64,000 bases of DNA, from NCBI GenBank assembly GCA_024401555.1, contig JAKSKV010000004.1:1-64000 (forward strand), in the 5' to 3' direction. Below are positions 26,091 to 51,090 of the stretch, piece by piece. The translations under genes were made by a program, and so were the position numbers. How positions within the stretch are numbered: the stretch's first letter is position 1; the number at the start of each line of letters is the position of its first letter. Source of the stretch: Paludibacteraceae bacterium (GTDB lineage: Bacteria; Bacteroidota; Bacteroidia; Bacteroidales; Paludibacteraceae). The notes below the pieces were generated by a model that did no database searches, had not been told where the DNA came from, and was given only the letters and a program-made list of their open reading frames with translations.

Positions 26091-26115
26091 TAAAAGAAGA
26101 AGGATTTATATACAT

Positions 26116-29100
26116 ATGAAACGAATAGTTATCACGGTTTTATCCGCCGCATTTATGGTAGGTGCGGTTATTTACGCTAAGACGAATGGTGTTGCTCTAT
26201 TTGAGACAGCGGAGGGACAACAGCAAAAGAAGGGAAAGGTGTCATCCAATGTGATGGCGCAATCTCAAATCGAGGCGCTTCCTTTATCTGCGGACTCTTC
26301 AGAGAAGGTCGCTGTTTCCCAGGCAGTCCAACCAGTCATCTCCAAGGATGGAGCTATGACTTATTCCTCTATTCAAAAAGAGGCGGTCGTAGGATTGTAC
26401 GAAGGTCGTCATAGCGATAACCCCGCTGATAACATATTCGAGGTTGTCATCGACAAGAACCTGAAAAATACAGATATCGTAATGTTGTCGTACAAACTCA
26501 CCGGACTAGCTGATTTTGCAGGTGTCTCAATGAGCGTGAACGACCAGAAGTCCATGGGTGGTTATTTGGTCTCCAATGCCAAGGATACTGTTGCCCATAA
26601 CGAGCAGCTGAATCCCGCATGGTTGCGTAAGGGTATGAACCGTTTCTTGTTCAGTGTGCCCGCTCCTTCATATGGATATAGAATATCCGATTTGCAAGTG
26701 CGGATTATTCCTTCCGACAGTGAACAACCATTGGTTGTGACTGGTTCTACAATCTCATACGACAATAAGGCTTATGTGAGAGGTTATGTGACGGATCCGT
26801 CCATAAAAGTGGTTCGGGTCAATGGAAGGAGTGTTGATTTAAGTGACGGTGTCTTTGAGAGCGTTGTCGCTCTTCCGTCCGATCGCGCGGTTACTGTGGC
26901 GACTCTCTCTAACGGAAAGGATGTTGTGAAAAATGTCTTCGTAAAAAGTGGAGTTGGCGCAGATTATGTTTATGAGAAATCCAAGGATGGTTTCGAACTG
27001 GTGGCCCATATGGATACTGACAGTGATGGTTCTATTGTCGCTCCAACCGCTAGTTTGACGGTGAAATCCGGTGATATGAAGAAATCCATGGATTTGTCCG
27101 TATCCTCATTGATTGATAAGGATATGCCGTCGTTGGATTATGGCATGTATAACGTGACCGATAGTTTTAGCGGATATCGATTCTTGCCTCACGGTGAGTT
27201 GTTTGAGGGCGAGGGTGCAACTGTCGCGATGGGATATGACCGGACTAAGATTCCTAACGGATATACGGAGGATGATATCAAAACATATTACTTCGACTTG
27301 AACACGAAGCATTGGGTGGCGTTGAAGAGAGACAGCATCGATAAGGAGAAACGGATGATTCTCTCCAAGACCAACCACTTCACGGATATGATTAATGGTA
27401 TCATAGTTGTTCCTGAGTCTCCTGAAACTAATGGATTTGCCCCTACCATTATGTCGGATTTGAAACCAGCTAATCCAGTTGAGAAGGTTCAGTTAATCCA
27501 GGCTCCTACTGCGAATAGTCAAGGATCTGCTAACGTATCCTATAGTATAGAGATGCCTCCAGCAAGGAATGGAATGGCTCCTAATTTAACCATCCAATAT
27601 AGTAGTGATGGCGGTTCAGGATGGTTGGGAGACGGATGGGATTTGCGTGTTCCTACAATCTCTGTAGAGACAAGATGGGGTGTCCCAACTTATAATCCAT
27701 TGTATGAAACTGAAACATATTTATATGATGGGCAGATGATGATTGAGAATGGAGTGGGACTATCTCATCGTAATGCAGGCATGCCAAGGCAATCTGGAGC
27801 AGTATTGTTTTTCCCTAGAAGGGAGGGAACATTCTCTAAGATAGAACGTATAGGAGATGATCCTACAAATTATGTCTGGCAGGTGACTGACGCCAAAGGT
27901 GTTAAATATACTTTTGGAAGGCTTGTCAAATATATGGTTGACACAGAAGAAGTAGATGAGTCTGGAGTACCTGTGAAAAAAGAAAAAAGTCATGTCGAAG
28001 GGTCTATAAGTGGTTTGTCGCTAAATTATTCTCTTGGTTCTTTGAGCACAGATTCTGTTGTTTCAGAGTGGCGAGTCACCAGAGTAGAAGATGTGCATGG
28101 TGACTATGTAGAATACAAGTATAAGAACGTGAGCGAGAATATTTTGGGGAACGACCTAAAAGCATCAGCGTTGTATCTGGATTCTATATGTGTAGGAAAT
28201 GTAGGAGAAAAGCCGCATACTGTGGTCACGTTTAAGAATAGAGCATCTGGCAAGTTGAAAACTAGAAGCTCCGGTAATTATGGGTATCTTACATCTTCAA
28301 ACGCATTATTGGAGGATATCTCCATTTACTTTGAGGGCAAATATCTGAGAGGATATCATTTCCATTATAAGAAGGGCGACTTTTACGCTGATTTATTAGA
28401 CAAAATAACGCAGTTTGATGCGGATGGAAATGAATTTAATAGTCATAGCCTCGTATATAAGAGTATGTCTGGTATGCCACTCTATTCAGATAGAATTCAA
28501 GAATATAAATCCGAAAAGTCGATAAATGGCAATCTCTTTGAAAAACTTATGGAGAAATTCGATTCGTATGATCCGAAGATGTCCATGTTAAATGCTAACG
28601 GAACTGATTTCGCTTATTCGGCTGGTGGTGGCTTATATTTGGGATGGGGACCCTTAGCCGCTGGAGCGTCGTACTCATATATTTATGACAAGGTTTATGG
28701 AAAAGAGACGTTGATAGATATTGATGGAGATGGAATCCCGGATAAGGTCACTTGCGATGGTGGTAAAGTAAAATACCAGAAGGGTCTTGTAGGTACGAAA
28801 GATTTTGGCCGTGTAATACCAATTCCGACCCTCGGTAGTTTTTTTGAACACAAGGCATCTGGAAACGAGTGGGGAAATCAGGATGTTATTGGAGTCGGAA
28901 ACTTATCGACAGGGGTTAATTATACCTCAATGGTTGAGAAGAATCGTACTAGAATTTATTTTATGGATTTCAATGCTGATGGATTGGTGGACGTTGCTTA
29001 TAGAGGCACGGTCTATTTCAATAGAATTGGTCCAGATGGTGTTCCCTCCTTCTATCCATATTCGTATGATACTCCAAACGTTATGAGTAGGGCGAAACTT

Positions 29101-32100
29101 CCTTCATCCCTTGTGTTGACAACGGGGGAATATACAAAAGAACAAGAGGATGAGTCTCCACTCCTGGATGCGGTAAGAGTATGGAAAGCCCCTTTTAATG
29201 GAACTATTGATATTCAATCGGTGGTGAAAGTCGCTCCAAGTCAGACATCGCCTGAGGATAACCGTAAAAACTATGATGGAGTTCATTGCGCAATTCAAAT
29301 AGGAGGAGAAGTGGTTTTGCGAGAAAAAAACATAGGTCCAAGTGAGACGAGGTTTTTGAATGCAACCTCTAAGAATGTCAAAAAGGGTGATTATGTTTAT
29401 TTTAGAACTAATTCCATCAAGCAAGGAATAGGTGACTTAGTATCATGGGATCCGGTGATTACTTATCAATCTATTAGCTTAGATGGTGTAACCTATACTG
29501 GAACAGACATTGCATCGAATTTTGTTGATGAAAATGGATTAAGTTTGTTTCGTTATCGTGCGAGTGAGGATTATGTCTGGTCATTCTTCAATTGCTTGCC
29601 TGTGGAAAGTGGATCAGCATTGGAAATCAAAGGACTTCCAGTTAAGAACGTAGTTACCGATGCTGATGTTAAATTCGTCATTAAATATCGTTACTATAAT
29701 GGTGATGCTACGATCCAAGATCAAGTGCCTTTAGTTACGTTTGAGTACCCGCGAGAGGCGGTAACTTCAGCCGGAGGAGTGCCAGTGGTTTCGTACATAA
29801 ATCAAAATGCTTGTGAGATTGGAGGTGATGGAATTGTTAGAGTCACACTACCAGACGATGACAATAGCTATACGTTAGTATTCTCGATCGAATCGGATGC
29901 TCGCATTCCATTTGAGACAGACTTATCCAATGAGTCAAATGGAATATGGTGGAGGCCTGTTGTCTCCGGTTATGAAAATCTGACGATTCTGCCATCCAGA
30001 CCTTTGTATAACCATATTAACAGTTATGCGGTGCCTTCGACTCTCGTCGTTAAAGATCGCTTGTTAGAGGTTAAGTCAGAAAACCCAGGTAAGGATGTGA
30101 CTGCAGACAATAGCATATACGTTAAAGTTTCAGGTGAAACATCGGATATGAGTCTTTTCTTATACGCATCTGATGGTAGAAGCATTCGTTTGACTAATGG
30201 TTCCATGTTATCTTCAGATGAGATAGAATCTATAAGTGGCCAAAAAATTCGTTTAGTCGCATATAAGAACAAGAATTACACCGAACAAGTTAATGTAAAG
30301 GTTTCCTTTGAAAGAAACTATTTCATTAAAGAAAATAATACAATCATAAATAATTTATTAAGTGTTTCTGATGATTATGCTGTGACTGTATATGACAGTC
30401 ATAGCACATCCGATTTACAGTTAGGACTCCTATTCAGGGGATGGGGACAATTTGCGTATATGGGAAAAGACTCTGATGAAGGAGGTTTGTATGAGAGAAT
30501 TGATGATGGCAAGTGGTCGTCAGTTGTTTTAAGTGCCGATGAAATTCAGAACCAAATGGGAAACATGTCAACACTAGGTGTCGAAGGTGCCGAAGGTGAT
30601 GATGGTGGTGATTCGTCATTTGAGATGAAATTCCCAGATTTTCAAGCGATGACTTTCAAATTAGAGAATGGTGTGAGTGGATATTATGCGCCTAGTGTGG
30701 TGGATGAGTCGAAGAATGCTATAGGTGTTTTTGTAACTCGAGAGTCTCAGTCTTCGTCTCGTTATGTTAATCCGATCATAGAGGAATTGGAAGTCGGAAC
30801 AGAGGCAGTTGATGAATATTTGGGTCCATGGGATGCTATGTATATTCAAAGAAGGAATAGAATTAACGTATTTAGCGCGGGTGTTACTATCCCAAAAGGA
30901 ATGCCGAAGGTAAAAGATTTCTTGACTGGTGATTTTGCCGAGAATTTGGAAAAATACAAGGAGTATATCAAAAAAGTGAAGGAGAATGATGGTGTGGATG
31001 ATTGGTCAGGGGGATCAGATGGTTCAGGGAAATCATGGTCTTGGGTGTATTCTCATACAGTTACGAATGCCCTGGATTTGAATGGCGACGGATATCCTGA
31101 TGCTCTTCATTCGGGAGATTTTGATGATTATAAGAACAGTATAAACGTGTATTATACTACTCCCAATGGCTCTATCAGAGATTATCTAATCCCTTCTGCC
31201 TTTTTCTCAGACTCATATAATAAGACAAGAGGAAATGGAATTGTAAAATCAGAGCGTAGCGAACATGTGTTGACACTGCCTGTAGGAGGATTCTCACGTA
31301 GCGAGAATAATGCTTCGGAGTCAGCCGGTCAAAATAAAGAAATTGCTTATACTGTGACTTCTGCTGAATCGCAGGCAGTAAGTAACTCGAAGGCTGAGCA
31401 CGATTGGTATGATGTAAATGGTGATGGATTACCAGATATGCTTTTTAAAGAGGAAGTAGCATTTAATCTTGGGTATTGTTTTACCCCAAGAGTGCCATTC
31501 CAAAAAAATTCTGTATTAGCTGCATATTCATATGGTGATACGAAGGCTAAAGCTGTTTCGGTGCCAATTAAAGGTAAAGCATGCGTAGGAGCCGGATATA
31601 ATGTTGCAAAAAGTGGAACGGGAATGACCTCATATCTTTTGGATGTGAATGCGGATGGCTTACCTGATTTGATATATGCGAATTCCGGAAAAATGTACGC
31701 AAAGATAAATATAGGTAATGGATTTGGTGAATCTGTTTTAATCGCCGATAAAGCGTCTTCGGAGGAGTCTGTTTCAACCTCATTTGCGGCACATATAAAT
31801 GGTGGTGTGGAGATAGAGACTCCGTGGGGATTCACTATCACTCCGTTCCTTAATGGTTCTACATCGTGGGCAACTACCAGAACCACGTCTAGTTTCATGG
31901 ATTTCGATGGAGATGGATACCCTGATCAATTAACTTCGAATGACGAAGAATCAATGAGTGTAGTTTCCTCAAATATTGGTGCGACAAATAAATTGCAGTC
32001 AGTTATTAATCCGTTAGGAGGAAGTTTTGATATTGACTATACTCATACAGAAGCCTCGTACGACCATCCTTATGGTAAGTGGGTGATGTCTTCTCTTACG

Positions 32101-35100
32101 GTAAGTGATGGTGTGTCGGATAATGGACCTGATCAAAGATTCAGGTTTGAGTATTCAGGAGGAAAGACAGACCGAAGGAATAGAGAATTTTTAGGGTTTG
32201 GAAAAGTTAAGACTATCAATCTGGATGACGATGGGAACGACTATAGGAAGTGTATTCAACTGTATGATATCACTAACTATTTCACAGCGGGAGCTCCCAA
32301 AGAAACATTGATTTGCGGTGCGGATGAGTCTGTAAAGTTTATGAAATCCACCTCAGATTATAAACTTTATAAAGTTACGTCAGGAAAATCACTGTCTGAC
32401 CCGATAATAGAAGAGAATTCTAGTTATATATATTTGCCTACGTATAAGAAGATTGTTGCTTATGAGAATTTGGGTAAGGATAGCTTGGAACTTTCTGAGG
32501 AGTTGTATGAATATGATGAGACATATGCTCACTTAAGTAGTTACAAATTCAAGAATCTTACTGATAACTCTGGTTATTTAACAGTGACAAAATACATCGA
32601 TAAAGTTGATGATGATAACCACATTATTGGATTGCCTGTCAGTGTAAGCACAGTCGGATTGGATGGTGTTACTTATAGACATTCCGAAGCGACCTATGGT
32701 GATAAGTTTACTCCGTATGCGATTACTTCACTAAAGAAAACGCTTAACTCTGCAGGCGACGTGGCTGAGTATAAAATGATGTATGACAAAGTAGGAAATG
32801 TGATAACTCAGATACTTCCTGCAAATGACAGGCGTGAGTCGATGTCATATAAATATACGTACGATAGAAAGTATAATATGTATGTAGAGCGGGTGGAGGA
32901 TGCTTTTGGCTACCGTTCGGAGATGGAAGATTATGACTATAGGTTTGGTGTCCCTTTGACGGTGCGTGATATGAATGGTTATTCGTTTAAAACTGAATTG
33001 GATAATGTTGGTCGAGTTGTTAAGGTACTTGCTCCGAAAGAGCAGGAGGCTGGATCGGACTATACCGTCAAGTACGTTTACGAAATACATCCAAGCAGTG
33101 GCCACCCATATGTTGTTGCTGACCACTTCGATTTACAACATCCGGATGATCCAATTAGTGTAGTGACGATATCCGATGGAGTCGGAAGAATCCTGCAGAT
33201 GAAGATGGACGCCGAGATAACGGCTGTTAATGGAAATGTCTCTTCAGCGCCGGAAGTTAAAACTATTTCAAGTGGTTTGTTGAAATATGATGCTTTGGGA
33301 CGGGTTGTGGAGAGTTACCATCCAGTTGTTTCCGATAAGGGTTCGGTCTCTTTTGAGAACAGTGCAAAAGAATTAAAGGTAACATCTACGTATGATATAT
33401 TGGGTAGGCCTGTATTATCTAACATGTACGGAGAGAATGGTTCTTACGACCAAACTCAATTTGAATATTCTATAGAAGAAGGAAAGTTGGCATCTACTGT
33501 CAAATTTCCCAATGATTCCAAACAAAGACAGTTTATAGACGGTGCGGGAAGAGTGGTGAGAACTTCTCAGTATTACACACCTATGGGTACGGGTGCGACC
33601 GAGTCAGGATGGGTTGATGTTAATTATCATTATGATCCAATTAATCAGTTATCTTCCTATGATGATGCGGGAAACAACCATGTAGCGTATGAATATGACA
33701 TGGCAGGTCGTCCATTATCAGTCTCCCATCCATCTGTTGGTTCTATTTCTTTGGCGTATGATAATGCTGGCAATCTTATAAAACGAAGAACTCAGAAACT
33801 TACGGATGAGGGAAATGCAATTGAGTATGGGTATGAATATAACCGCTTGGTTAGTATATCATACAAGGATCATCCTGAGAATAATGTCTTTATCACATAT
33901 GGAGGTGTCAATGCCCATCATAACCGTATTGGTAAGGTTGCTCTCGTACAGGATGGAACGGGAGCCCAAGAGTTCTATTATGGCCGTCTAGGTGAACTGA
34001 CTAAAGTTCGTAGAACTATCGTCATTCCTAATAACGCAGTTGCAACATACACGACGGAATGGCAGTATGATACATGGAATAGGTTGATGCATATGGTATA
34101 TCCTGACGGAGAGTTGGTTAAATACAACTATGATCATGGAGGAAAACTGGTCTCTGTAGTAGGCGAGAAGGAAAATAAGTATACATATGTTCAGAACATA
34201 GGATATGATAAGTATGGACAAAGAGTTTATATGAAATATGGTAATGGTACGGAGACCTTCTATGGTTATGAGGATGTTCGTAGACGTATGAATAGTCTCC
34301 AGGTGTTTTCTCCTAGTAGCGGAGGTTTAATAATGAACAATCTGTATAAATACGACGCTCTTGATAACATTACTCAGATAAAAAATGAGGTCACTCCTCA
34401 GCTTGATGTGCTTGGAGGAAGGATGTCCACGGATTATACATATGACTGCTGGTCCCGTCTGATTTCTTCGCATGGCGAGTATACGGGGGCTCAGGGAGAG
34501 AATGGCGTAAAAAGCGCTTCTTATGATTTGTATATGTCATACGACAAATTGTATAACATTACAAACAAGTCATTAGATATGCATCAAACCAATATTCAGT
34601 TTGATGGCACATTACATGCCGGTCATGTTTTGAACTATTCTTATGATGAGTCTAATCCGTTTAAACTCATGTCTGTTTCCTCTAATGAGTATAGGACTGA
34701 AGACTTGGAGAAGAAGGATGAAAATACCGTAAGAACGAATGTTGCATATGATTTTGATTCAAATGGTAATTTGATAGAGGCCCGATCTGACAAAGTAACT
34801 GTTGGCAACACTGAAAGTGGTTATACAGAAGATAGTCGTGACGCTATTAGCAAGATCAACTACTTGTGGGATGATGAAAACCGACTTATAGCAATTAATG
34901 AAGGTGGTTTTGTTTCACGTTATTGGTATGACGCTAACGGAGAGCGTATTATCAAAATGTCTGGTGGAAAAGATGCGGTCTTCCTGAATGGCGCCATTTC
35001 CTCTGAGTCCTTGTCAGATATAGGCGTTAGGTTCACTGCCTATGTTTCCCCTTATATGGTTGCCTCTGAAAAAGGAAACTATACAAAGCATATTTATGTG

Positions 35101-36384
35101 GGACGGGAGCGTATTGTAAGTAAACTTGGAGATGTGCAGTCGTTTGGGGCTGATCCTCGTCGCGTTGCGAAAGCTGGAGATGATGTAGAGGAGCTGAAGG
35201 CTCCGGTTAACTTTGCGTCAATATATTCAAACCAGACTCAACAAATTCCGATGACTTATGATGTGTTCGAGCTGCCTTATAATGGTAAATCGAATGACGA
35301 TTATACTAATGGATCCTGTTGTGGTGGAGAAGAAGAGTCTTCTTCAGATAATATGGATGAGGGTGATAAGGTAAATGCTGAAAAAGAAATCTATTTTTAT
35401 CACTCTGACCATTTAGGTAGTTCCTCATATATTACTGATATTGATGGCGATGTAACTCAACACATTGAATACATTCCATATGGAGAGGTTTTTGTTGATG
35501 AACACAAGGGAGCGTGGAGTACCCCATATCTTTTCAACGCAAAGGAATTAGATGAAGAGACTGGGTTGTATTACTATGGAGCAAGGTATTTGAATCCTAA
35601 GGATACAAGATGGTTAAGTGTAGACCCTATGTTTGAGACATATCCGGGTATGAGTCCTTATAATTATTGTATGAACAATCCAATAAAATACATAGATCCA
35701 ACGGGCATGTTAACAGAAGATCAGGCAAACGAACGAATGCAGGAGCTGTTGACAAACGCGGACCCAAATAGTTATTTCTCAGTTGAAAAAGATGATAAAG
35801 GTGAGTATTATGTGGATTGTGGTGCTCATAATGGTTCTTCAAGAAAAGATTATGAATTGCCAACTTCGAGGTTGAACTCAAGTCCAGTTGAGAAAAATTA
35901 TACGCAAGAAGGAGGAGTATGGGTGTCTGGATTAATGACTTCGTCAGAAGAAAGGCAATCGCGATATGTTGATGGCAATATTGATAATTTTAATACGGCA
36001 TTCGTTCCTGGTACAGAACTTGGTTTGTTATTAGAATGGTTGTCTAAAGTATTGCCTAAGGGTCATTCAAGTAGTGATGGAAAATCCAAATTCGTTCCAA
36101 AAGAAGATTATGTCCGAACAGAAATCTCCTATGACTATAGGTTCACTACTATGGGAACAGACTCACGTGTTAGTGATTATAAGAAAGACGATATTACAAA
36201 GGTGGATAAGATCATGTGTGTACGGGAAATCACGTACGACGGTAAAACAGGGAAAGTAAAGTCCTGCAGATTATTATCTGAGGATGTAGTTCAGTCTGTT
36301 GATAACATTAAACCAGGTAAAAACTCTACTGGTAGGAATGCGGAGGATGTGTTCTACGAGGAATTGAATTCTAGAAATCCATAG
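26116..36384 (+). CDS. 3422-residue SpvB/FG-GAP/RHS protein with unrecognised C-terminal tip
   Basis: A giant exported protein built like the B component of Tc toxins. The start at 26116 gives a signal peptide (MKRIVITVLSAAFMVGAVIYA); an in-frame ATG at 26065 overlaps the previous gene. An SpvB-like domain starts at about residue 465 (SANVSYSIEMPPARNG, GDGWDLRVP). FG-GAP-like calcium loops DxNxDGxxD or DxDGDGxPD occur near residues 868, 951, 1653, 1765, 1842 and 1928. YD repeats run from about 2250 to 2960. The RHS core is intact (YHSDHLGSSSYITDIDGD, GLYYYGARYLNPKDTRWLS, then DPTGM ending at residue 3198). The 224-residue tip beyond it is Lys/Asp-rich, has two or three Cys, and matches no toxin I recognise. 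The next downstream gene is 520 nt away, so no immunity gene is obvious. Confidence 0.85.
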   Translation: MKRIVITVLSAAFMVGAVIYAKTNGVALFETAEGQQQKKGKVSSNVMAQSQIEALPLSADSSEKVAVSQAVQPVISKDGAMTYSSIQKEAVVGLYEGRHSDNPADNIFEVVIDKNLKNTDIVMLSYKLTGLADFAGVSMSVNDQKSMGGYLVSNAKDTVAHNEQLNPAWLRKGMNRFLFSVPAPSYGYRISDLQVRIIPSDSEQPLVVTGSTISYDNKAYVRGYVTDPSIKVVRVNGRSVDLSDGVFESVVALPSDRAVTVATLSNGKDVVKNVFVKSGVGADYVYEKSKDGFELVAHMDTDSDGSIVAPTASLTVKSGDMKKSMDLSVSSLIDKDMPSLDYGMYNVTDSFSGYRFLPHGELFEGEGATVAMGYDRTKIPNGYTEDDIKTYYFDLNTKHWVALKRDSIDKEKRMILSKTNHFTDMINGIIVVPESPETNGFAPTIMSDLKPANPVEKVQLIQAPTANSQGSANVSYSIEMPPARNGMAPNLTIQYSSDGGSGWLGDGWDLRVPTISVETRWGVPTYNPLYETETYLYDGQMMIENGVGLSHRNAGMPRQSGAVLFFPRREGTFSKIERIGDDPTNYVWQVTDAKGVKYTFGRLVKYMVDTEEVDESGVPVKKEKSHVEGSISGLSLNYSLGSLSTDSVVSEWRVTRVEDVHGDYVEYKYKNVSENILGNDLKASALYLDSICVGNVGEKPHTVVTFKNRASGKLKTRSSGNYGYLTSSNALLEDISIYFEGKYLRGYHFHYKKGDFYADLLDKITQFDADGNEFNSHSLVYKSMSGMPLYSDRIQEYKSEKSINGNLFEKLMEKFDSYDPKMSMLNANGTDFAYSAGGGLYLGWGPLAAGASYSYIYDKVYGKETLIDIDGDGIPDKVTCDGGKVKYQKGLVGTKDFGRVIPIPTLGSFFEHKASGNEWGNQDVIGVGNLSTGVNYTSMVEKNRTRIYFMDFNADGLVDVAYRGTVYFNRIGPDGVPSFYPYSYDTPNVMSRAKLPSSLVLTTGEYTKEQEDESPLLDAVRVWKAPFNGTIDIQSVVKVAPSQTSPEDNRKNYDGVHCAIQIGGEVVLREKNIGPSETRFLNATSKNVKKGDYVYFRTNSIKQGIGDLVSWDPVITYQSISLDGVTYTGTDIASNFVDENGLSLFRYRASEDYVWSFFNCLPVESGSALEIKGLPVKNVVTDADVKFVIKYRYYNGDATIQDQVPLVTFEYPREAVTSAGGVPVVSYINQNACEIGGDGIVRVTLPDDDNSYTLVFSIESDARIPFETDLSNESNGIWWRPVVSGYENLTILPSRPLYNHINSYAVPSTLVVKDRLLEVKSENPGKDVTADNSIYVKVSGETSDMSLFLYASDGRSIRLTNGSMLSSDEIESISGQKIRLVAYKNKNYTEQVNVKVSFERNYFIKENNTIINNLLSVSDDYAVTVYDSHSTSDLQLGLLFRGWGQFAYMGKDSDEGGLYERIDDGKWSSVVLSADEIQNQMGNMSTLGVEGAEGDDGGDSSFEMKFPDFQAMTFKLENGVSGYYAPSVVDESKNAIGVFVTRESQSSSRYVNPIIEELEVGTEAVDEYLGPWDAMYIQRRNRINVFSAGVTIPKGMPKVKDFLTGDFAENLEKYKEYIKKVKENDGVDDWSGGSDGSGKSWSWVYSHTVTNALDLNGDGYPDALHSGDFDDYKNSINVYYTTPNGSIRDYLIPSAFFSDSYNKTRGNGIVKSERSEHVLTLPVGGFSRSENNASESAGQNKEIAYTVTSAESQAVSNSKAEHDWYDVNGDGLPDMLFKEEVAFNLGYCFTPRVPFQKNSVLAAYSYGDTKAKAVSVPIKGKACVGAGYNVAKSGTGMTSYLLDVNADGLPDLIYANSGKMYAKINIGNGFGESVLIADKASSEESVSTSFAAHINGGVEIETPWGFTITPFLNGSTSWATTRTTSSFMDFDGDGYPDQLTSNDEESMSVVSSNIGATNKLQSVINPLGGSFDIDYTHTEASYDHPYGKWVMSSLTVSDGVSDNGPDQRFRFEYSGGKTDRRNREFLGFGKVKTINLDDDGNDYRKCIQLYDITNYFTAGAPKETLICGADESVKFMKSTSDYKLYKVTSGKSLSDPIIEENSSYIYLPTYKKIVAYENLGKDSLELSEELYEYDETYAHLSSYKFKNLTDNSGYLTVTKYIDKVDDDNHIIGLPVSVSTVGLDGVTYRHSEATYGDKFTPYAITSLKKTLNSAGDVAEYKMMYDKVGNVITQILPANDRRESMSYKYTYDRKYNMYVERVEDAFGYRSEMEDYDYRFGVPLTVRDMNGYSFKTELDNVGRVVKVLAPKEQEAGSDYTVKYVYEIHPSSGHPYVVADHFDLQHPDDPISVVTISDGVGRILQMKMDAEITAVNGNVSSAPEVKTISSGLLKYDALGRVVESYHPVVSDKGSVSFENSAKELKVTSTYDILGRPVLSNMYGENGSYDQTQFEYSIEEGKLASTVKFPNDSKQRQFIDGAGRVVRTSQYYTPMGTGATESGWVDVNYHYDPINQLSSYDDAGNNHVAYEYDMAGRPLSVSHPSVGSISLAYDNAGNLIKRRTQKLTDEGNAIEYGYEYNRLVSISYKDHPENNVFITYGGVNAHHNRIGKVALVQDGTGAQEFYYGRLGELTKVRRTIVIPNNAVATYTTEWQYDTWNRLMHMVYPDGELVKYNYDHGGKLVSVVGEKENKYTYVQNIGYDKYGQRVYMKYGNGTETFYGYEDVRRRMNSLQVFSPSSGGLIMNNLYKYDALDNITQIKNEVTPQLDVLGGRMSTDYTYDCWSRLISSHGEYTGAQGENGVKSASYDLYMSYDKLYNITNKSLDMHQTNIQFDGTLHAGHVLNYSYDESNPFKLMSVSSNEYRTEDLEKKDENTVRTNVAYDFDSNGNLIEARSDKVTVGNTESGYTEDSRDAISKINYLWDDENRLIAINEGGFVSRYWYDANGERIIKMSGGKDAVFLNGAISSESLSDIGVRFTAYVSPYMVASEKGNYTKHIYVGRERIVSKLGDVQSFGADPRRVAKAGDDVEELKAPVNFASIYSNQTQQIPMTYDVFELPYNGKSNDDYTNGSCCGGEEESSSDNMDEGDKVNAEKEIYFYHSDHLGSSSYITDIDGDVTQHIEYIPYGEVFVDEHKGAWSTPYLFNAKELDEETGLYYYGARYLNPKDTRWLSVDPMFETYPGMSPYNYCMNNPIKYIDPTGMLTEDQANERMQELLTNADPNSYFSVEKDDKGEYYVDCGAHNGSSRKDYELPTSRLNSSPVEKNYTQEGGVWVSGLMTSSEERQSRYVDGNIDNFNTAFVPGTELGLLLEWLSKVLPKGHSSSDGKSKFVPKEDYVRTEISYDYRFTTMGTDSRVSDYKKDDITKVDKIMCVREITYDGKTGKVKSCRLLSEDVVQSVDNIKPGKNSTGRNAEDVFYEELNSRNP

Positions 36385-36881: not shown

Positions 36882-36889
36882 TATATTTG
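36882..36889 (+). promoter_or_regulatory. Consensus -7 box upstream of the sigma-factor gene
   Basis: TATATTTG matches the Bacteroidota housekeeping -7 consensus TAnnTTTG exactly and is followed by C, as is usual. It ends 18 nt before the ATG at 36908. No good -33 TTTG was found at 18-20 nt spacing. Confidence 0.55.
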
Positions 36890-36907
36890 CGGAAAACGAA
36901 TTGTGAT

Positions 36908-37483
36908 ATGATGACACCGGAAGAGATAATGCGAGACACGGAGGATGGGCAGGTTTATACCGCCATCTTTGACACATTCCGTGTCCAGATGGAGCGTGTG
37001 CTGGGCAACTATTCGATAGAGTCCGCCGAGGAACGCTACGACTATCTGATGGATTTTTACCTTCATCTCCGCGACGACAAGAATGGCCCGTACCATGCCT
37101 ATCTGACGATCCGCGCCGAACATAAGGAGGCCTCCAGGGCCCAATGGCTCAGGACCACGTTCCGTAACTACATGAACCGTAGGTTTGTGGAGAAGCTTCC
37201 TTCTCTCGACGGGAACGAGGAATTGGTGGAAGAGGAGGATTCTTTCGCCGTGCGGGATGTCCGTATGGCTGTGGATGTGCTGGATCGTGTGAACAAGACC
37301 TTTCCAGCGCCGGAGCGTGTGGTCTTCTTCTATGATTTGTGGGCCGTCAGCTACGACGAGAAATTTCCTACGGAGAAGGTTACGGAGATGCTCTGTTGCA
37401 CGGAGGGGAATCTCAGGGTGATGAAGCATCGGGTGAGGAACAAGGTAAAAAGAGTAGTTAAAAGTTTGGAGGAACGGTTATGA
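36908..37483 (+). CDS. ECF-like RNA polymerase sigma factor
   Basis: A 191-residue protein with a two-part sigma layout and no membrane segment. The first half resembles sigma region 2 (YDYLMDFYLHLR, then WLRTTFRNYMNRRF). After an acidic linker, the second half resembles region 4 (PERVVFFYDLWAVSYDEKF, then a helix-turn-helix ending EGNLRVMKHRVRNKVKRVV). The ATG at 36908 is preferred over an in-frame TTG at 36887 that overlaps the -7 box. The stop overlaps the next start (ATGA), so the two genes are translationally coupled. Two identical ECF-type promoter boxes lie downstream, which are its most likely targets. The fit to classical ECF families is loose, so similarity searching could move it to another sigma-70-like group. 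Confidence 0.7.
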   Translation: MMTPEEIMRDTEDGQVYTAIFDTFRVQMERVLGNYSIESAEERYDYLMDFYLHLRDDKNGPYHAYLTIRAEHKEASRAQWLRTTFRNYMNRRFVEKLPSLDGNEELVEEEDSFAVRDVRMAVDVLDRVNKTFPAPERVVFFYDLWAVSYDEKFPTEKVTEMLCCTEGNLRVMKHRVRNKVKRVVKSLEERL

Positions 37484-37953: not shown

Positions 37954-38547
37954 ATGGAAGAAGTGAAGGAAACGGATTTTGATTATACGGAATGGAACGA
38001 GTCGTCGTTCAGTGATCCGACGGAATTGATGCGCAAGTTCAGGGAATTGAGGGTCGTCGGAAGGAAAATCGCGGGATTCAGGATTATAGGAATTGACTTC
38101 ATCGGTCGGACGACATCTCGCCATGCGGAGATAGACGAGCCATTTGTCATCATATTTGAAGACGGCGACGAGTTGGATGTCGATTACAGTTGCGAGGTCG
38201 TGAAGGTGGGTCTGAACGCCTTGCCCGAAGGAATGACGTCGTACCAAGGCGATAGTGTATGGTATGACGCCAACGTCAAATTCTCGAACTGTCTGGGGGA
38301 AACGATCGAATCCATTCATATAGAAACTGCCGATTATGCATGCGATTGGAGCGGAGAGATTATAGAATGTGACAGTCAGGCCCTGTTCATTCGTTCGTTT
38401 TCCTTCTGTCTCTCGTCGGGCGTCGAATTGGAGTTTTATCCCTTCTTTGATTTTGGAGAGGTGCGGGTTGTCGATTCCAAAGTCCGTGATGGTTTGTGTA
38501 TGAGAATGACGGGAAGTGAGGCTGAAAGGTATTGTCATCCGACTTAA
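37954..38547 (+). CDS. Hypothetical cytoplasmic protein behind an ECF-type promoter
   Basis: A 197-residue acidic protein of unknown family. The N-terminal half looks alpha-beta: helix FSDPTELMRKFRELRVVG, then the strand-rich RKIAGFRIIGIDFIGRT and EPFVIIFEDGDELDVDYSC. The C-terminal half repeats strand-rich stretches (SFSFCLSSGVELEFYPFFDF). The shape suggests a small-molecule or protein-binding domain rather than an enzyme. No signal peptide or membrane segment is seen. Its promoter box and position suggest that it answers to the neighbouring sigma factor. It ends 32 nt before the second box. Confidence 0.65.
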   Translation: MEEVKETDFDYTEWNESSFSDPTELMRKFRELRVVGRKIAGFRIIGIDFIGRTTSRHAEIDEPFVIIFEDGDELDVDYSCEVVKVGLNALPEGMTSYQGDSVWYDANVKFSNCLGETIESIHIETADYACDWSGEIIECDSQALFIRSFSFCLSSGVELEFYPFFDFGEVRVVDSKVRDGLCMRMTGSEAERYCHPT

Positions 38548-38579
38548 AAAAAGTTTTGAAAAATTTTTTTCGGAATTTT

Positions 38580-38605
38580 TGTAACAAAATGAATTTCTGT
38601 GTCTC
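38580..38605 (+). promoter_or_regulatory. ECF-type promoter box, copy 2
   Basis: TGTAAC (38580-38585), 15 nt, GTCTC (38601-38605), with the same spacing as the copy at 37888 and shared flanks (AAAA after TGTAAC, TTTCTGT before GTCTC, TAT and GAAAC after). The ATG at 38635 lies 29 nt downstream. Confidence 0.7.
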
Positions 38606-38634
38606 TATGGAGTAGAAACGTAAAAATAACGAGT

Positions 38635-39246
38635 ATGAAATCTAGATTGGTAATTTATTTCAGCGCCTTATGCAGCTGCTGCATGGCGAAGGATGTGATC
38701 GTGACTAAGGACGCCCAACAGATAGAGGCGAAGGTCACGGAAGTTTCGGAGACGGAGGTGAAGTACAAGAAAGCGAGCAATCCCAACGGACCGACCTTCG
38801 TGATGTCCACCGACAAGATCGCCACGGTCGTCTATGAGAACGGGGAGATACAAACCTTCCAACCAGCCGCGGGTCCGGCGCAGGAGGCTCAGCCGCAGAG
38901 TGCCGCGCCCTCAGGTGACGGCGATGGGAAGGCTTCCCAGGTGAAGAAGGCGTCGTCCCACCCTAAGATCCTCTACTCCAGAATCACATTGCCCGACGGA
39001 AGAAGGAGGAAGCGTTACCACAGCGAGGACAACTCCCTTATCATGAGAGGCTCTGAATTTAGTTCCTACTTGGCGGCTCATTGCCCTGAGGCGCACAGGC
39101 AACTGAGGAAATCCAACGGAACCGCGGTGGCTTCCATCTTCCTGGATTTCTTCTTCCTGCCGGCGGGTTTGGCATTGGCCATCGTGTCATCGGTTCAGTC
39201 CGAAAAGGTGCTGCCGATTTACAACGAGAAATGCGCCGAGGAGTAG
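38635..39246 (+). CDS. Exported or membrane protein of a Bacteroidota-specific family
   Basis: A 203-residue protein. The start at 38635 gives a short hydrophobic N terminus with Cys residues (RLVIYFSALCSCCMA), a signal peptide or lipoprotein-like leader. A small beta domain follows (DVIVTKDAQQIEAKVTEV, then VKYKKASNPNGPTFVMSTDK, then VYENGEIQTF), a pattern seen in many uncharacterised Bacteroidota exported proteins. A Pro/Ala/Gln-rich linker leads to a second region and one transmembrane helix near residues 160-185 (ASIFLDFFFLPAGLALAIVSS). It is the second gene with the ECF box and may be the envelope end of that response. Upstream starts at 38599 overlap the promoter box and are rejected. 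Confidence 0.65.
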   Translation: MKSRLVIYFSALCSCCMAKDVIVTKDAQQIEAKVTEVSETEVKYKKASNPNGPTFVMSTDKIATVVYENGEIQTFQPAAGPAQEAQPQSAAPSGDGDGKASQVKKASSHPKILYSRITLPDGRRRKRYHSEDNSLIMRGSEFSSYLAAHCPEAHRQLRKSNGTAVASIFLDFFFLPAGLALAIVSSVQSEKVLPIYNEKCAEE

Positions 39247-39340
39247 GGTAGAAGATATCTGTGCCCAGATGTTGTAGTCAAGCTTCCTGCCAATAAATCA
39301 ATCTTACGGTACGGCTTGGCGAAACGGAGGGTTGTAGGTG

Positions 39341-39377
39341 TGGGTAGTCTCAGGGAAATTAGTGCCCTGAATGCCCA
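39341..39377 (+). ncRNA. Hairpin motif copy A
   Basis: An inner stem CAGGG/CCCTG with an AAATTAGTG loop is surrounded by an outer stem TGGGTA (39341-39346) and TGCCCA (39372-39377). The 28 nt at 39345-39372 recur exactly at 40434-40461, but there the outer stem has a different sequence that still pairs. That is the signature of a conserved RNA or DNA fold rather than a plain duplication. Confidence 0.55.
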
Positions 39378-39623
39378 AACCCTTTGTGGCACCATAGTAA
39401 GGCTTGTCCGTTCGGATCTCCTGCTCGGGTGCGCAACATGTTGCGGGGGACGGAGCCGCCTATGCGGTAGTCTCTCGCTCTTAACAAGTTCTGACGTTTT
39501 ATCTCTCTCCTGAAGAAGGTGGCAAGATTGTAGGGCTGAGTTGCCCTGCGGACTACCCCGGCAGATAAGGTGGTTCGGAGATTCTGGCCAGGAACTTGGG
39601 GAATCGGAGTAACCTCCATGGCG

Positions 39624-39814
39624 CCACGCCTATGGTATGCGTGGGAGGCCGATTCCTGTCATCTGGAAATCCTACATTAGGAGCTACAGTCCCCACAGGC
39701 GATTCCCTCTGTAAGTGGTACAATGATAGGCTCTTCCTGATGACGGACCCGAACGTGGGGATTCGGGTCCTTTTATTTGTGAAATATCCGTCACGGAACA
39801 TCGATGGATAGGGG
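39624..39814 (+). ncRNA. Structured RNA-like unit, copy 1
   Basis: A unit of 191 nt, closely similar to 40186-40375 over its whole length. The 5' hairpin CCTATG/CGTGGG pairs with two G-T wobbles, where copy 2 has full Watson-Crick pairs (CCTACG/CGTAGG). A middle part has CCCCACAGGCGATTCCCTC. The 3' hairpin GGACCCGAA (39745-39753) and TTCGGGTCC (39762-39770) is followed by TTTT and looks like an intrinsic terminator. A last small hairpin ATATCC/GGATA lies beyond it. No promoter was identified. Confidence 0.6.
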
Positions 39815-39970
39815 TCGGAATCAGAGGAGTTTGTGTCCTGGATAGTCGTCAACCACATACATAGATGGATAATATACAAATACTTGCTCTTCGGAATAGC
39901 GGGGGAGAGTTACGGCACTCCAGATTGTCCAGCCGAAAAGCGGTAAAAGGATTATGCGCATGTTCTGACA

Positions 39971-40074
39971 CCCTGTAGGCGAGTGGCAGTCCCTATGGTC
40001 GATTTTCCCTGCCGGTGTAAACTTGGTGGCTCTGTCAGTGACATGAACTCAAACATAGGGATTTGAGTTTTTGC
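39971..40074 (+). ncRNA. Structured RNA-like unit, diverged partial copy
   Basis: A shorter relative of the two flanking units. It keeps GCGAG then GGCAGTCCC, a TTTTCCCT block, GGCTCT, and a T-tract hairpin AACTCAAA (40046-40053) and TTTGAGTT (40062-40069). That hairpin has a completely different stem from the other copies but almost the same 8-nt loop (CATAGGGA against CGTGGGGA). The 5' hairpin of the full units was not found here. Confidence 0.5.
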
Positions 40075-40185
40075 ATAATCTGATATAAAAAGGCGATGTA
40101 ATTCTTGTAAGATGCGAGCCGAGGTCTAGTGGTTGTGCTACGGCGTTTGAAGGTCTGAGTTTTTGCCTTTGATGAGAATCGTGTT

Positions 40186-40375
40186 CCACGCCTACGGTAC
40201 GCGTAGGAGGCCGATTCCTGTCATTGGGAAATCCTATATGCGAGCGACAGTCCCCACAGGCGGTTCCCTCTGGAAGTGGTACTGTATAGGCTCTTTCCTG
40301 ATGATGGACCCGAACGTGGGGATTCGGGTCCTTTTTTAGCGAAATATCCGTCATGGAACATCAATGGATATGGGG
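40186..40375 (+). ncRNA. Structured RNA-like unit, copy 2
   Basis: A 190-nt unit matching copy 1. The folding signals are clearest here. The 5' hairpin is CCTACG/CGTAGG. The nested central stems are CCTAT/ATAGG, ACAGT/ACTGT and CCAC/GTGG around a CCCTCTGG loop. The 3' terminator hairpin is GGACCCGAA (40306-40314) and TTCGGGTCC (40323-40331), followed by six T. Single-base indels relative to copy 1 rule out a shared reading frame. Confidence 0.6.
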
Positions 40376-40425
40376 CGGGTTGATTGCAACCCTACCGACG
40401 AAATGAAGACATATGTTTTGGAGTA

Positions 40426-40470
40426 CCGGCGGTTAGTCTCAGGGAAATTAGTGCCCTGAATAACCGTCGG
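40426..40470 (+). ncRNA. Hairpin motif copy B, upstream of the WG-repeat gene
   Basis: The outer stem CCGGCGGTTA (40426-40435) and TAACCGTCGG (40461-40470) has one wobble. It encloses the same GTCT-CAGGG-loop-CCCTG-AA core as copy A. It ends 43 nt before the ATG at 40514, so it could be a 5' leader element of that gene, or the end mark of the RNA array. Confidence 0.55.
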
Positions 40471-40513
40471 ACCCCATGACATGAACGAAATTTAATTTTA
40501 GAAAGGAATTGCA

Positions 40514-42079
40514 ATGGCAGAGTATAAGGTATATATGGATGAAAAACACCATCTTGGACTTGTAAGTGAGGATGGGAAGCACAGGACACCAGCTGTATAT
40601 GATGAGATTCAGACAAAAGAAGATGGTGTTTGGTATTGTCGAGCCTATACAAATTGGGATTATTTTTATCCTAAATCCGGCACGTTCAGCATGAAAAGCC
40701 GTTGTCATTATATGATAAGAGAAGAAATCGAAGTCGGTTACGATCCCACTACTCCGGCGGATAGAGAAGTTTATGATTCAATATCGGAATATGTGACCGA
40801 CCGGTACATCATCCTTTATAAAGATGGAAAGTTCGGCGTGAAATCTTTGGATGGCTCTGTCATCCTTGAGACCATATACGATGATGTCATTTTATGGTAT
40901 AAGGCCAATGTCATCCAGGTGCGAAAAGGAGATAAACATCTCTATTTCAACGACCGTAAGGAGCGTATTTTAACTGATGTGCTTCCATTTGAGGCGGGCG
41001 ATAAACCCTTCTGGGATGGAATCGGGAATGACCAGTTCGTTGTCAGGGAAATCGTGGAAAGTGCCACGGATAACCACACGTATGAATCGGAGGCTGGCAT
41101 GGTGAGGATTTATCCGCTGAAGGTACGGGAGGTCGCTGATTTGTTGGAAACCAACTGTGAGCGTATCCCTATGGATTCTGAAGTCATCAAGGATTTGACA
41201 GACCAGTACAGTTACGAATTCGGAATGTCGATCATAAAGGTCAAAGCCGATGCTGACGGCGTAATCTCAGACGAGGTGTGGGAGGAAGGTATGGAAAAGC
41301 TCGGCATGCTGCATGGGTTTGGCAATAGTTGGTACTACATCGATAAGTTCCTCACGAACAGCAAAACCAAACTGTCGGTTAAGAGCCTTTATTGGCTCAA
41401 ACATAGATATGAAATGAAGTACCAAGTCCTCAATAAGTCTCTCTCGTATGGTATAGACGATACCCTCGCTGACGGAGAGGTGAAATGGATTCATGTGAAA
41501 CACTACAATGAGCATTGTTTCCCGGAGGATTATGGCGTCAGCGACGCCATGAGGAATGGAACGCTCGAAGAGTTGAAGGAGATAATCGAGACGCATGACT
41601 GGCAGGCTCAAGGAGATCCCTATGGAGGATGTTTCTTTGGATATAGAAACATCTGCTACTTCCAAGGAAGACCTTGGCGCGAGACGGAGAGAATACTGAA
41701 CTATATGTATGAACTCGGGCATAAACCCAAGTCTCTTATTGCCTGCGCCATCGAACATCTGTATTACGGCAGTCTTGGGGACTTTTGTGGTATTGGTGTT
41801 AGGGAGTTGACCTTCTGGAAAAGATGCGTGATGTGGGCTCTTCGCAGAGGAGATTTCCCTAATTCCCTGAGTGAAGGGGAAACTCGTTATGACCTGTTCT
41901 TGAAATCTAAGCTTTATTCCGGCAAGACAGCCCAAAGGATAATAAAGGAGATAGGAGATGCTTTCCTAGCCCATGGAGCAAGGACGGGCGAGCAGCAGAT
42001 AGAATTCGGTTGGCAACAAGTTAATGCTATCCCCGATCCGTATGACTATTCGATAGCGGACTCCTTGTTAAACAAATAA
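40514..42079 (+). CDS. WG-repeat-like protein of unknown role
   Basis: A 521-residue cytoplasmic protein without a signal peptide. The N-terminal third has WG/KWG-like repeats (HHLGLVSEDGKHRTPAVYDEI, then DGKFGVKSLDGSVILETIYDDV), a beta fold common in Bacteroidota proteins. The rest is helical; one stretch (GTLEELKEIIETHDWQ) looks like an ankyrin helix pair, and LNYMYELGHKPKSLIACAIEH resembles another helical repeat. No catalytic motif is seen. AAAGGAAT lies just upstream of the ATG, a fair ribosome site. In Bacteroidota, WG proteins often sit near RHS or polymorphic toxins, so an immunity or accessory role for the upstream locus is possible but unproven. Confidence 0.65.
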   Translation: MAEYKVYMDEKHHLGLVSEDGKHRTPAVYDEIQTKEDGVWYCRAYTNWDYFYPKSGTFSMKSRCHYMIREEIEVGYDPTTPADREVYDSISEYVTDRYIILYKDGKFGVKSLDGSVILETIYDDVILWYKANVIQVRKGDKHLYFNDRKERILTDVLPFEAGDKPFWDGIGNDQFVVREIVESATDNHTYESEAGMVRIYPLKVREVADLLETNCERIPMDSEVIKDLTDQYSYEFGMSIIKVKADADGVISDEVWEEGMEKLGMLHGFGNSWYYIDKFLTNSKTKLSVKSLYWLKHRYEMKYQVLNKSLSYGIDDTLADGEVKWIHVKHYNEHCFPEDYGVSDAMRNGTLEELKEIIETHDWQAQGDPYGGCFFGYRNICYFQGRPWRETERILNYMYELGHKPKSLIACAIEHLYYGSLGDFCGIGVRELTFWKRCVMWALRRGDFPNSLSEGETRYDLFLKSKLYSGKTAQRIIKEIGDAFLAHGARTGEQQIEFGWQQVNAIPDPYDYSIADSLLNK

Positions 42080-49560: not shown

Positions 49561-51090
49561 ATGAATATCGTATTAATAATTGCCGGAATCGTCGTTGGTG
49601 GCGTGGTGACATGGGTCGTGTTGAACACGATTATGAAATCGCGTGCCGAGAAGATTTTGAAGGATGCCGAGAGTGAGGCGACGAAGATGCGCGAAGAGAA
49701 GATTCGCGAGGCGAAACAAAAGTTTCAAGAACTTAAAAATGAGTATGATTCGCAATGTAACCAACATAATGCGAAGATGCAACAGTTTGATTCTAAACTC
49801 AAACAACGCGAGATGCAGTTGAAACAGTTCGAGTCGGAGTTGCAAAAAGGAAAGACTGAGAATGAAAATTTGAAGGAGAGCCTTAACAATCAGTTGGATA
49901 TCGTAAATTCCCGCAAGCAGGAGTTGGAAAAGTTGAACCGTATGGCCAGTGAGCGTTTGGAGACCATCTCCGGACTTTCTGCGGCTGAGGCGAAGGAGAA
50001 GTTGATCGAAGCTTTGAAAGAGGAGGCTAAGACCGATGCGATGTCTTATGTGAATGAGATCATGGAGGAGGCGAAGATGACCGCCAATAAGGAGGCGAAG
50101 AGAATTGTGGTGCAAACCATTCAACGTGTCGCTACTGAGGCCGCTATTGAAAACTCCGTAACTGTATTCAATATCGATTCTGATGAGATCAAGGGCCGTA
50201 TCATCGGTCGAGAAGGCCGTAACATTCGTGCCTTGGAGGCCGCTACAGGTGTTGAGATCATTGTCGATGATACTCCTGAGGCTATTGTCCTCTCTGCATT
50301 TGATCCAGTTCGTCGTGAGGTGGCTCGTTTGGCGCTTCACCAATTGGTTACCGATGGTCGTATCCACCCTGCCCGTATCGAGGAGGTGGTTGCCAAGGTG
50401 AAGAAGCAAGTGGAGGAGGAGATCGTCGAGACTGGTAAGCGTACCACGATCGATTTGGGAGTCCATGGATTGCACCCTGATTTGGTGAGATTGATCGGTA
50501 AGATGAAATACCGTTCTTCATACGGACAAAACTTGTTGCAACACGCCCGTGAGACCGCTAACCTTTGTGCGGTGATGGCTTCTGAGTTGGGTCTTAACCC
50601 TAAGAAGGCGAAACGTGCCGGTTTGTTGCACGATATTGGTAAGGTGCCTGATGATGAGCCAGAGTTGCCACACGCATTGTTGGGTATGAAGTTGGCTGAA
50701 AAGTATAAGGAGAACCCTGAGATCTGCAACGCGATCGGTGCCCACCACGAGGAGATCGAGATGAAGAGCCTTCTCTCTCCAATTGTTCAGGCTTGTGATG
50801 CTATCTCTGGTGCAAGACCAGGTGCGCGTCGTGAAATCGTTGAGGCTTACATCAAGCGTTTGAATGACCTTGAGAAGTTGGCGCTCTCTTATCCAGGTGT
50901 TGTGAAGACATACGCTATCCAAGCTGGTCGTGAGCTCCGTGTGATTGTGGGAGCCGACAAGATTGACGATAAGGAGATCGACACATTGTCTTGCGAGATC
51001 GCTAAGAAGATCCAAGACGAGATGACTTATCCGGGACAAGTGAAGATCACGGTGATCCGTGAGACCCGTGCGGTAAGTTTCGCAAAATAA
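49561..51090 (+). CDS. rny: Ribonuclease Y
   Basis: A 509-residue membrane-anchored endoribonuclease that starts mRNA decay. One N-terminal transmembrane helix ([18 protein letters not shown]) is followed by a long coiled coil (residues about 30-190). A KH RNA-binding domain comes next ([20 protein letters not shown]), then an HD metal phosphodiesterase domain (LLHDIGK with the HD pair; GAHHEEIE). It ends TRAVSFAK. Length and order match RNase Y throughout. An AT-rich stretch (TATATATATT) before the ATG may hold a promoter, but no consensus box is exact. Confidence 0.96.

Follow-up and report, generated by a model that had tools for sequence, protein, structure and literature searches.

Several described RNAs share part of their design with the locus reported here. 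In the cobalamin riboswitch, a kissing loop joins the core to the expression platform. ToxI, the antitoxin RNA of type III toxin-antitoxin systems, is pseudoknotted, occurs in tandem with a unit of about 36 nt and ends in a terminator. In Bacteroidota, GibS of Bacteroides thetaiotaomicron is described as a 145-nt intergenic stand-alone sRNA with identified target genes (PMC7366714).

The window (the whole stretch of 64,000 nucleotides from a Paludibacteraceae genome that was analysed) holds three copies of a structured RNA unit of about 119 nt. Apparent in the sequences are a fold, the complementarity of a clasp within it, a strand bias, terminator-like ends, a promoter-like box in two genomes and a patchy presence. 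We consider it reasonably probable that the units represent a new family of small noncoding RNAs of about 120 nt, with the 3' hairpin clasped to the core, that likely act in trans.

Results

Three copies of the unit in the window

The three copies, u1, u3 and u2 in map order, lie in a stretch without a convincing gene (39247-40513) that is flanked by two plus-strand ORFs (Table 1). The first-pass annotation, made from the letters alone, had described three units with shared blocks ending in terminator hairpins; the blocks were found where it had placed them, and the stems and loops are as it quoted them. Its unit length of about 190 nt fits u1 and u2, which are 88% identical as stretches of about 195 nt, but the unit common to all copies is shorter. 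Likewise, its tandem array exists in the window but is not a property of the family, there being one copy per Salinivirgaceae genome. The diverged short copy u3 gave a 61% match over 41 nt in sequence comparison and was matched over its whole length by the covariance model (E 1.2e-22), in whose training set it is included. A blastn search of the source genome (G000) with u1 returned u2 together with another copy, which lies on contig C122 (6880-7004, minus strand), and the covariance model found four copies in this genome and none further up to E 10.

Table 1. Features of the array and copies in other genomes (positions refer to the window)
Feature	Position or contig	Strand	Remarks
Element V before u1	39624-39655	+	weak hairpin, outside core RNA
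RNA unit u1 (P1-P2-P3-P3b-P4)	39656-39775	+	covariance model, 100 bits
u1 bulge L3 TCCCCAC	39690-39696	+	
u1 P4 stem	39745-39753/39762-39770	+	T-tract after 39770
u1 loop L4 GTGGGGA	39755-39761	+	
3' tail of u1	39772-39818	+	85% over 47 nt common to u1/u2; weak hairpin, z -0.7
RNA unit u3 (diverged)	39958-40075	+	covariance model, 106 bits
u3 bulge L3 TCCCTATG	39990-39997	+	
u3 P4 stem	40046-40053/40062-40069	+	short T-tract
u3 loop L4 CATAGGGA	40054-40061	+	
Element V before u2	40186-40217	+	
RNA unit u2	40218-40336	+	covariance model, 127 bits
u2 bulge L3 TCCCCAC	40251-40257	+	
u2 P4 stem	40306-40314/40323-40331	+	T-tract after 40331
u2 loop L4 GTGGGGA	40316-40322	+	
3' tail of u2	40332-40378	+	z -1.2
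Repeated hairpin D2, copy 1	39342-39372	+	z -3.0 for 39330-39385
Repeated hairpin D2, copy 2	40431-40461	+	z -5.2 for 40418-40475
L008, copy in G008			3' half gone (broken copy)
L012	JAGCFC010000139.1		Salinivirgaceae, yak omasum MAG; single copy
L018	JAFYYA010000138.1		Salinivirgaceae, water buffalo omasum MAG; single copy

A rod with a clasped 3' hairpin

The RNA would fold as a rod of P1 (8 or more bp), P2 (6-8 bp), P3 (4 bp) and P3b (3 bp, closed by a hexaloop), followed by the 3' hairpin P4. A 7-nt bulge between P3 and P3b (L3) is predicted to pair with the P4 loop over 7-8 bp, which would clasp the 3' hairpin onto the core. All six helices, that is P1, P2, P3, P3b, P4 and the clasp, are backed by paired changes.

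The compensatory changes proposed in the first-pass annotation were borne out in two alignments. In a model-fitted alignment of seven rows, which includes the broken copy of the congener G008, 94.4% of 250 cells pair and 20 of the 37 pairs are changed on both sides. Its covariation score of 0.452, compared with 0.191 ± 0.027 in shuffles, was reached by 0 of 500 of them; double-change cells number 41 versus 12.6 in shuffles, and pairing falls to 30-48% when partners are slid by 1-3 columns. A five-row MAFFT alignment made from sequence only, on which the scored structure was one chosen by inspecting those same rows, pairs in 90.8% of 184 cells with double changes at 18 of 37 pairs, and again none of 500 shuffles reached the score. 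The count of further pair types, a weaker measure, was reached by 5 of 500 shuffles for the seven rows and by 37 of 500 for the five. RNAalifold recovered P1, P2, P3, P3b and P4 unaided from the five-row alignment, and 18 of its 33 pairs are compensated. A comparison of the two Salinivirgaceae orthologues shows 4 pairs that changed on both sides and were kept, against 0.64 expected (34 of 20000 as high), and 3 that are intact in only one of them; in u3, 4 of 36 pair cells are non-standard, two of them in P2. The sample is small, with six intact copies in three genomes, u1 and u2 being near-duplicates. We regard it as highly probable that this is a real conserved RNA structure.

As to the strand, RNAalifold scored the minus strand worse (-25.0 versus -27.7, with covariation terms of -1.5 and -4.4). 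The 220 cells of the six full rows comprise 197 Watson-Crick pairs, 12 G-T, 1 A-C and 10 others; the surplus of G-T over A-C (one-sided binomial for at least 12 of 13, 0.0017) leans towards a plus-strand RNA, and leans only, since the alignment was itself fitted on that strand. Folding energies of the plus strand are modest (z -2.2, -0.2 and -2.7 for u1, u3 and u2), and z is lower for the minus strand in all three (-4.5, -1.2 and -4.4). ViennaRNA, which folds without pseudoknots, preferred a different fold to the consensus in 7 of 7 rows.

The clasp itself would join the P4 loop GTGGGGA to the complementary upstream bulge TCCCCAC. In u3 both sides have changed together, CATAGGGA with TCCCTATG, so that two positions per side differ from the other copies and an eighth pair is gained; L012 also gains an eighth pair. 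Since u3 is the only source of variation inside the 7-bp clasp, this amounts to one or two events. Pairing of the clasp holds in every lettered cell of the seven-row alignment, with duplex energies of -11.0 to -14.4 kcal/mol. The complementary run between L3 and the 8-nt loop is 7-8 nt long in all six full copies, a length matched by 13 to 120 of 20000 loop shuffles. The first-pass annotation had quoted the P4 loops correctly and called them nearly the same, but missed their significance, which is that the differences are compensated in the upstream bulge.

The unpaired letters around the clasp are nearly invariant. GAG before P3 and GGCTCT after P2 occur in all six full copies and AAGTG after P3 in five, AGTG being replaced by GGTG in u3; the hexaloop reads CGATTC in four of the six. 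On account of this near-invariance, we read these letters as a putative binding face for a protein or another RNA. A hammerhead-like CTGATGA in u1 and u2 was also considered and set aside, as it is absent, by reading, from C122 and the Salinivirgaceae copies.

Ends of the RNA and its neighbours

Both Salinivirgaceae copies (L012 and L018) carry TATCTTTG just before P1. This matches TAnnTTTG, published as the -7 box of the phylum (PMC7366714). No TAnnTTTG box occurs on the plus strand of window positions 38501-41000, and the window copies may therefore be parts of longer transcripts.

At the 3' end, the first-pass annotation had taken P4 for a terminator. This agrees with the T-tracts in the window but would cover only part of the role of P4, because P4 of the Salinivirgaceae copies lacks a T-tract, and directly behind it stands another hairpin, with T6-T7. 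A terminator scan called u1 and u2, with shuffles giving 1.7 such sites on average, and left u3, which has a short T-tract only, uncalled; the terminator-like ends of C122, L012 and L018 were identified by reading. The probable stop of transcription is P4 in the window and C122 copies, which have a T-tract there, and the separate terminator-like hairpin just behind P4 in Salinivirgaceae. That the units are ordinary duplicated terminators of a gene array, kept by recent duplication only, was already disfavoured and is the least probable of the explanations weighed here. It would account for the near-identity of u1 and u2 and their scoring as terminators, but the core rather than the hairpin is most conserved (up to 97% over 37 nt with another family), stems have changed in pairs, and the Salinivirgaceae P4 is free of a T-tract.

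The surroundings of the copies differ. By Pfam, the Salinivirgaceae copies lie between a divergent rimP, followed in L018 by nusA and infB, and a convergent topoisomerase gene. On the RNA strand, no likely gene was found within about 1.3 kb downstream in L018 or 0.6 kb in L012, where the only ORFs are mechanical ones in repeats or antisense to the topoisomerase gene. The C122 unit lies between two ORFs without a family match. These neighbourhoods bear on a cis-acting leader, an attenuator or riboswitch-like element in which the clasp between L3 and the terminator loop would gate passage past P4 into the next gene, three of them standing in series before ORF 40514 in the window. The window and C122 units do lie between co-directional ORFs with T's after P4, the conserved unpaired letters resemble a binding site, and cobalamin riboswitches use such a core-to-platform kissing loop. 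We nevertheless consider a leader rather unlikely: both Salinivirgaceae copies are followed by a terminator-like hairpin and by no likely same-strand gene over the distances given, the ORFs that follow the units in the window and in C122 do not resemble each other and have no family match, and no antiterminator competing with P4 was seen by eye. The conserved unpaired core, the variable stems, the terminator-like ends and the lack of a likely downstream gene in Salinivirgaceae together speak for a trans-acting RNA rather than a switch controlling the next gene.

In the window, the array lies behind giant proteins with RHS, SpvB and TcdB-middle matches (20970-36384). There are two such RHS-repeat proteins, the second of 3439 aa and the one that also matches SpvB and TcdB-middle, and they lie behind rpoB/rpoC and two large ORFs. 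The small ORFs before the array have no Pfam match, one of them (36887-37483) giving a sigma-70 ECF match below the cut-off. No reverse transcriptase or RNA-guided nuclease was found among the scanned proteins, 16 in the window plus neighbours of the other copies. The earlier statement that no such gene lies nearby thus holds for the 16 window proteins, except for the housekeeping RNase Y (49561-51090), 9 kb from the array. A group II intron or retron RNA was rejected, given no reverse transcriptase by Pfam among the 16 window proteins and no Rfam match.

The RNA could instead be the partner (a guide, antitoxin or decoy) of a toxin, nuclease or reverse transcriptase encoded elsewhere in the genome. 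A compact pseudoknotted RNA with invariant unpaired letters and a patchy distribution is what such a partner might look like, and the window copies stand behind giant Rhs/SpvB-like proteins. We hold this to be distinctly improbable, as the scanned proteins beside the copies, a subset of the ORFs, include no reverse transcriptase or RNA-guided nuclease and the Salinivirgaceae copies sit among housekeeping genes.

Flanking elements

The 5' hairpin that had been counted as part of the unit did not hold up in that capacity. This element V precedes both u1 and u2, and weak relatives of it occur in C122 and G008 (E 0.008 and 0.002); sequence comparison gave nothing matching it at u3 or at either Salinivirgaceae locus. 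When folded by itself, the element does not outperform shuffles in u1 (z -0.20) or u2 (z -0.42) and does so modestly in G008 (z -1.88); we treat it as a separate, weakly supported element. Weak similarity (71% over 90 nt, E 0.002) links window positions 39569-39655, ahead of u1, with the leader of the G008 copy (L008 4060-4148), and a longer non-coding transcript may accordingly be conserved.

A 31-nt hairpin, D2, occurs on both sides of the array with 97% identity, and its outer stems differ between the copies and pair in both. Its exact core is absent from 63 of the 71 loci compared, the eight with a match all overlapping the window, and a looser pattern gave no match in viral contigs. Further upstream, a recurring stretch, GTAACAAAA...GTCTCTATAGGGTAGAAAC, is found at window positions 38578-38619, in L008 (2527-2577 and 3915-3965), at the end of L004 near 9021 and on contig C72 of G000 (60-110). 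Its copies are 86% identical, the window copy 79% at E 0.002, and it presumably resembles an ECF-sigma promoter. In G008, an AAA ATPase ORF (L008 2715-3887) that weakly matches IetA, a defence ATPase model (E 0.0007), lies between two of these promoter-like stretches.

Distribution

Among 61 genomes, comprising its own and relatives, u1 matched two, G000 and the congener G008, and it matched the same two among 16 genomes of the genus. A core pattern run over the genome contigs of 84,980 species returned 12 stretches, of which three are true copies (L008, L012 and L018); the other nine, among them three instances of one repeat in a Petroclostridium genome, were discarded because inspection showed the surrounding helices to be missing. 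Searches with the covariance model matched 1 of 393 genomes of the order (the source genome itself), 2 of 20 of the family of G062, and 6 of 358 of the source family at E up to 1; of these six, G000 and G008 are real and four (E 0.3-0.9) were judged chance. At class level, 2 of 395 genomes matched at E up to 0.1, the source genome and L071 (30.7 bits), which was rejected as its core is missing. Among weaker matches, L036-L039 (17-20 bits) were judged chance, as was L040 (24.5 bits), which looks coding; L041-L043 scored 14-17 bits. Because searches over 40 genomes scored only 9-10 candidates per genome, and because the order, Salinivirgaceae-family and family searches used a model of lower sensitivity in which P2 was off by one column, more remote members could have escaped detection. 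In phage and plasmid records, blastn found no match to the window stretch or the Salinivirgaceae RNA gene, and each of five unit patterns gave no match in viral contigs.

Homologues with preserved pairing are thus present on C122 of G000 and in two Salinivirgaceae genomes, and the proposal of an RNA family did not founder on a lack of them. The best reading is a rare, patchily inherited family, with intact copies in three genomes and a broken copy in one among those searched.

Gain, loss and rearrangement

In the family of the Salinivirgaceae carriers, rimP was found in 19 of 20 genomes. Among the nine nearest rimP loci, which were read, the gene on the far side is common to four: G061 and G062, which carry the RNA, and G444 and G441, which lack it. 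In an alignment with G062, identical bases in the left flanks of G444 and G441 number 98 and 109 (over the first 104 and 117 of 178), and in the right flanks, where the match begins 155 and 105 nt beyond the RNA, 375 and 469. Immediately next to the RNA site the sequences differ, the RNA gene itself gives only 9-10-base matches, and TATCTTTGCAG is missing at that locus in both RNA-less genomes. In a tree of rimP and part of nusA (12 rows from 11 genomes, rooted for drawing only, leaving out G434, seven more distant genomes and one genome without a rimP match), G061 and G062 are not sisters, and the RNA-less G442 is placed with G062 (98/99). This leaves two histories, repeated loss of an old gene or movement of the gene. 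A 20-base flanking repeat occurs one to four times per genome in G061, G062, G444 and G441, in G441 on another contig, and these low numbers speak against a multicopy element there.

Between C122 and G008, gene content differs at non-coding repeats. One change breaks inside the unit, L008 matching C122 up to 4314 and again from 4514; the other coincides with a different inverted repeat (L008 4145-4245, z -5.2). This repeat lies directly upstream of the unit at L008 4145-4245 and at L004 7005-8781 (minus strand). By reading, its arms enclose two ORFs of more than 180 aa and perhaps a small one in C122 and are joined as a short hairpin in G008. With element V on one side and element U on the other, it has the look of an inserted cassette or MITE-like element.

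Such rearrangements raise the prospect of a DNA element, a folded single strand or repeat serving recombination between gene cassettes like an integron attC site. The break inside a unit, the patchy copies and the lower z of the minus strand would suit it. Yet the G-T bias and the weaker covariation of the other strand argue for a one-strand RNA, as a leaning given the plus-strand fit of the alignment, the second C122/G008 change goes with the different inverted repeat, and the Salinivirgaceae copies have promoter-like and terminator-like ends. We therefore think a DNA element improbable.

Discussion

Our preferred reading remains a compact, end-protected RNA that most likely works in trans. 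We infer from the sequences that it is transcribed, acts in trans and has a binding partner. Our confidence in the full reading is moderate because independent sequences are few, the window has no promoter box, plus-strand folding is modest with lower z on the minus strand, a break falls inside the unit in G008, and close relatives are without the RNA. A bolder version would see a new RNA fold class with copy-specific clasps, spread between gut Bacteroidales families and multiplied behind Rhs-type giant proteins, possibly as RNA-based immunity or a decoy against an RNA-acting toxin; this would be a long shot.

What the locus would offer is a defined, testable new RNA family with a 3'-loop-to-core clasp, from bacteria whose RNAs have been little studied. 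Should the clasp turn out to control termination or to shield the RNA, the design would be simple and directly probeable.

The first-pass annotation had not recognised the RNA as any known family, and the Rfam results agree: at gathering threshold, Rfam 15 gave no match in the window, L004, L008, L012 or L018. Lax searches gave seven matches up to E 10 in window positions 39200-40550 and four up to E 2 in L012 and L018, all sub-threshold and none over the L3/P3 core. A literature search, with supplements such as the 3161 candidates of PMC8040213 outside its scope, found no description of the RNA. Its rarity may explain its absence from Rfam.

The best sub-threshold match, to the Bacillus sRNA ncr1241 (27.2 bits, E 0.05, at 40284-40337), is well below the gathering score of 60 and covers the 3' half with P4, without the bulge and P3. 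The RNA differs from ToxI in its unit of about 120 nt, in existing also as single copies and in having no adjacent toxin gene found, with no match to a ToxN-like gene among the scanned neighbour proteins; like ToxI, it would be a pseudoknotted RNA, in tandem in the window, that ends in a terminator. It differs from the cobalamin riboswitch in lacking an Rfam match, in its core and in having no likely downstream gene in Salinivirgaceae, and resembles it in that a core loop would kiss the loop of a 3' hairpin. For GibS, compared by description and not by sequence, a bulge-to-loop clasp is not mentioned in the available part of the report (PMC7366714). With the GibS-type sRNAs of Bacteroidota it shares a similar length and an intergenic position, and its Salinivirgaceae copies combine the phylum-type -7 box with a terminator-like end.
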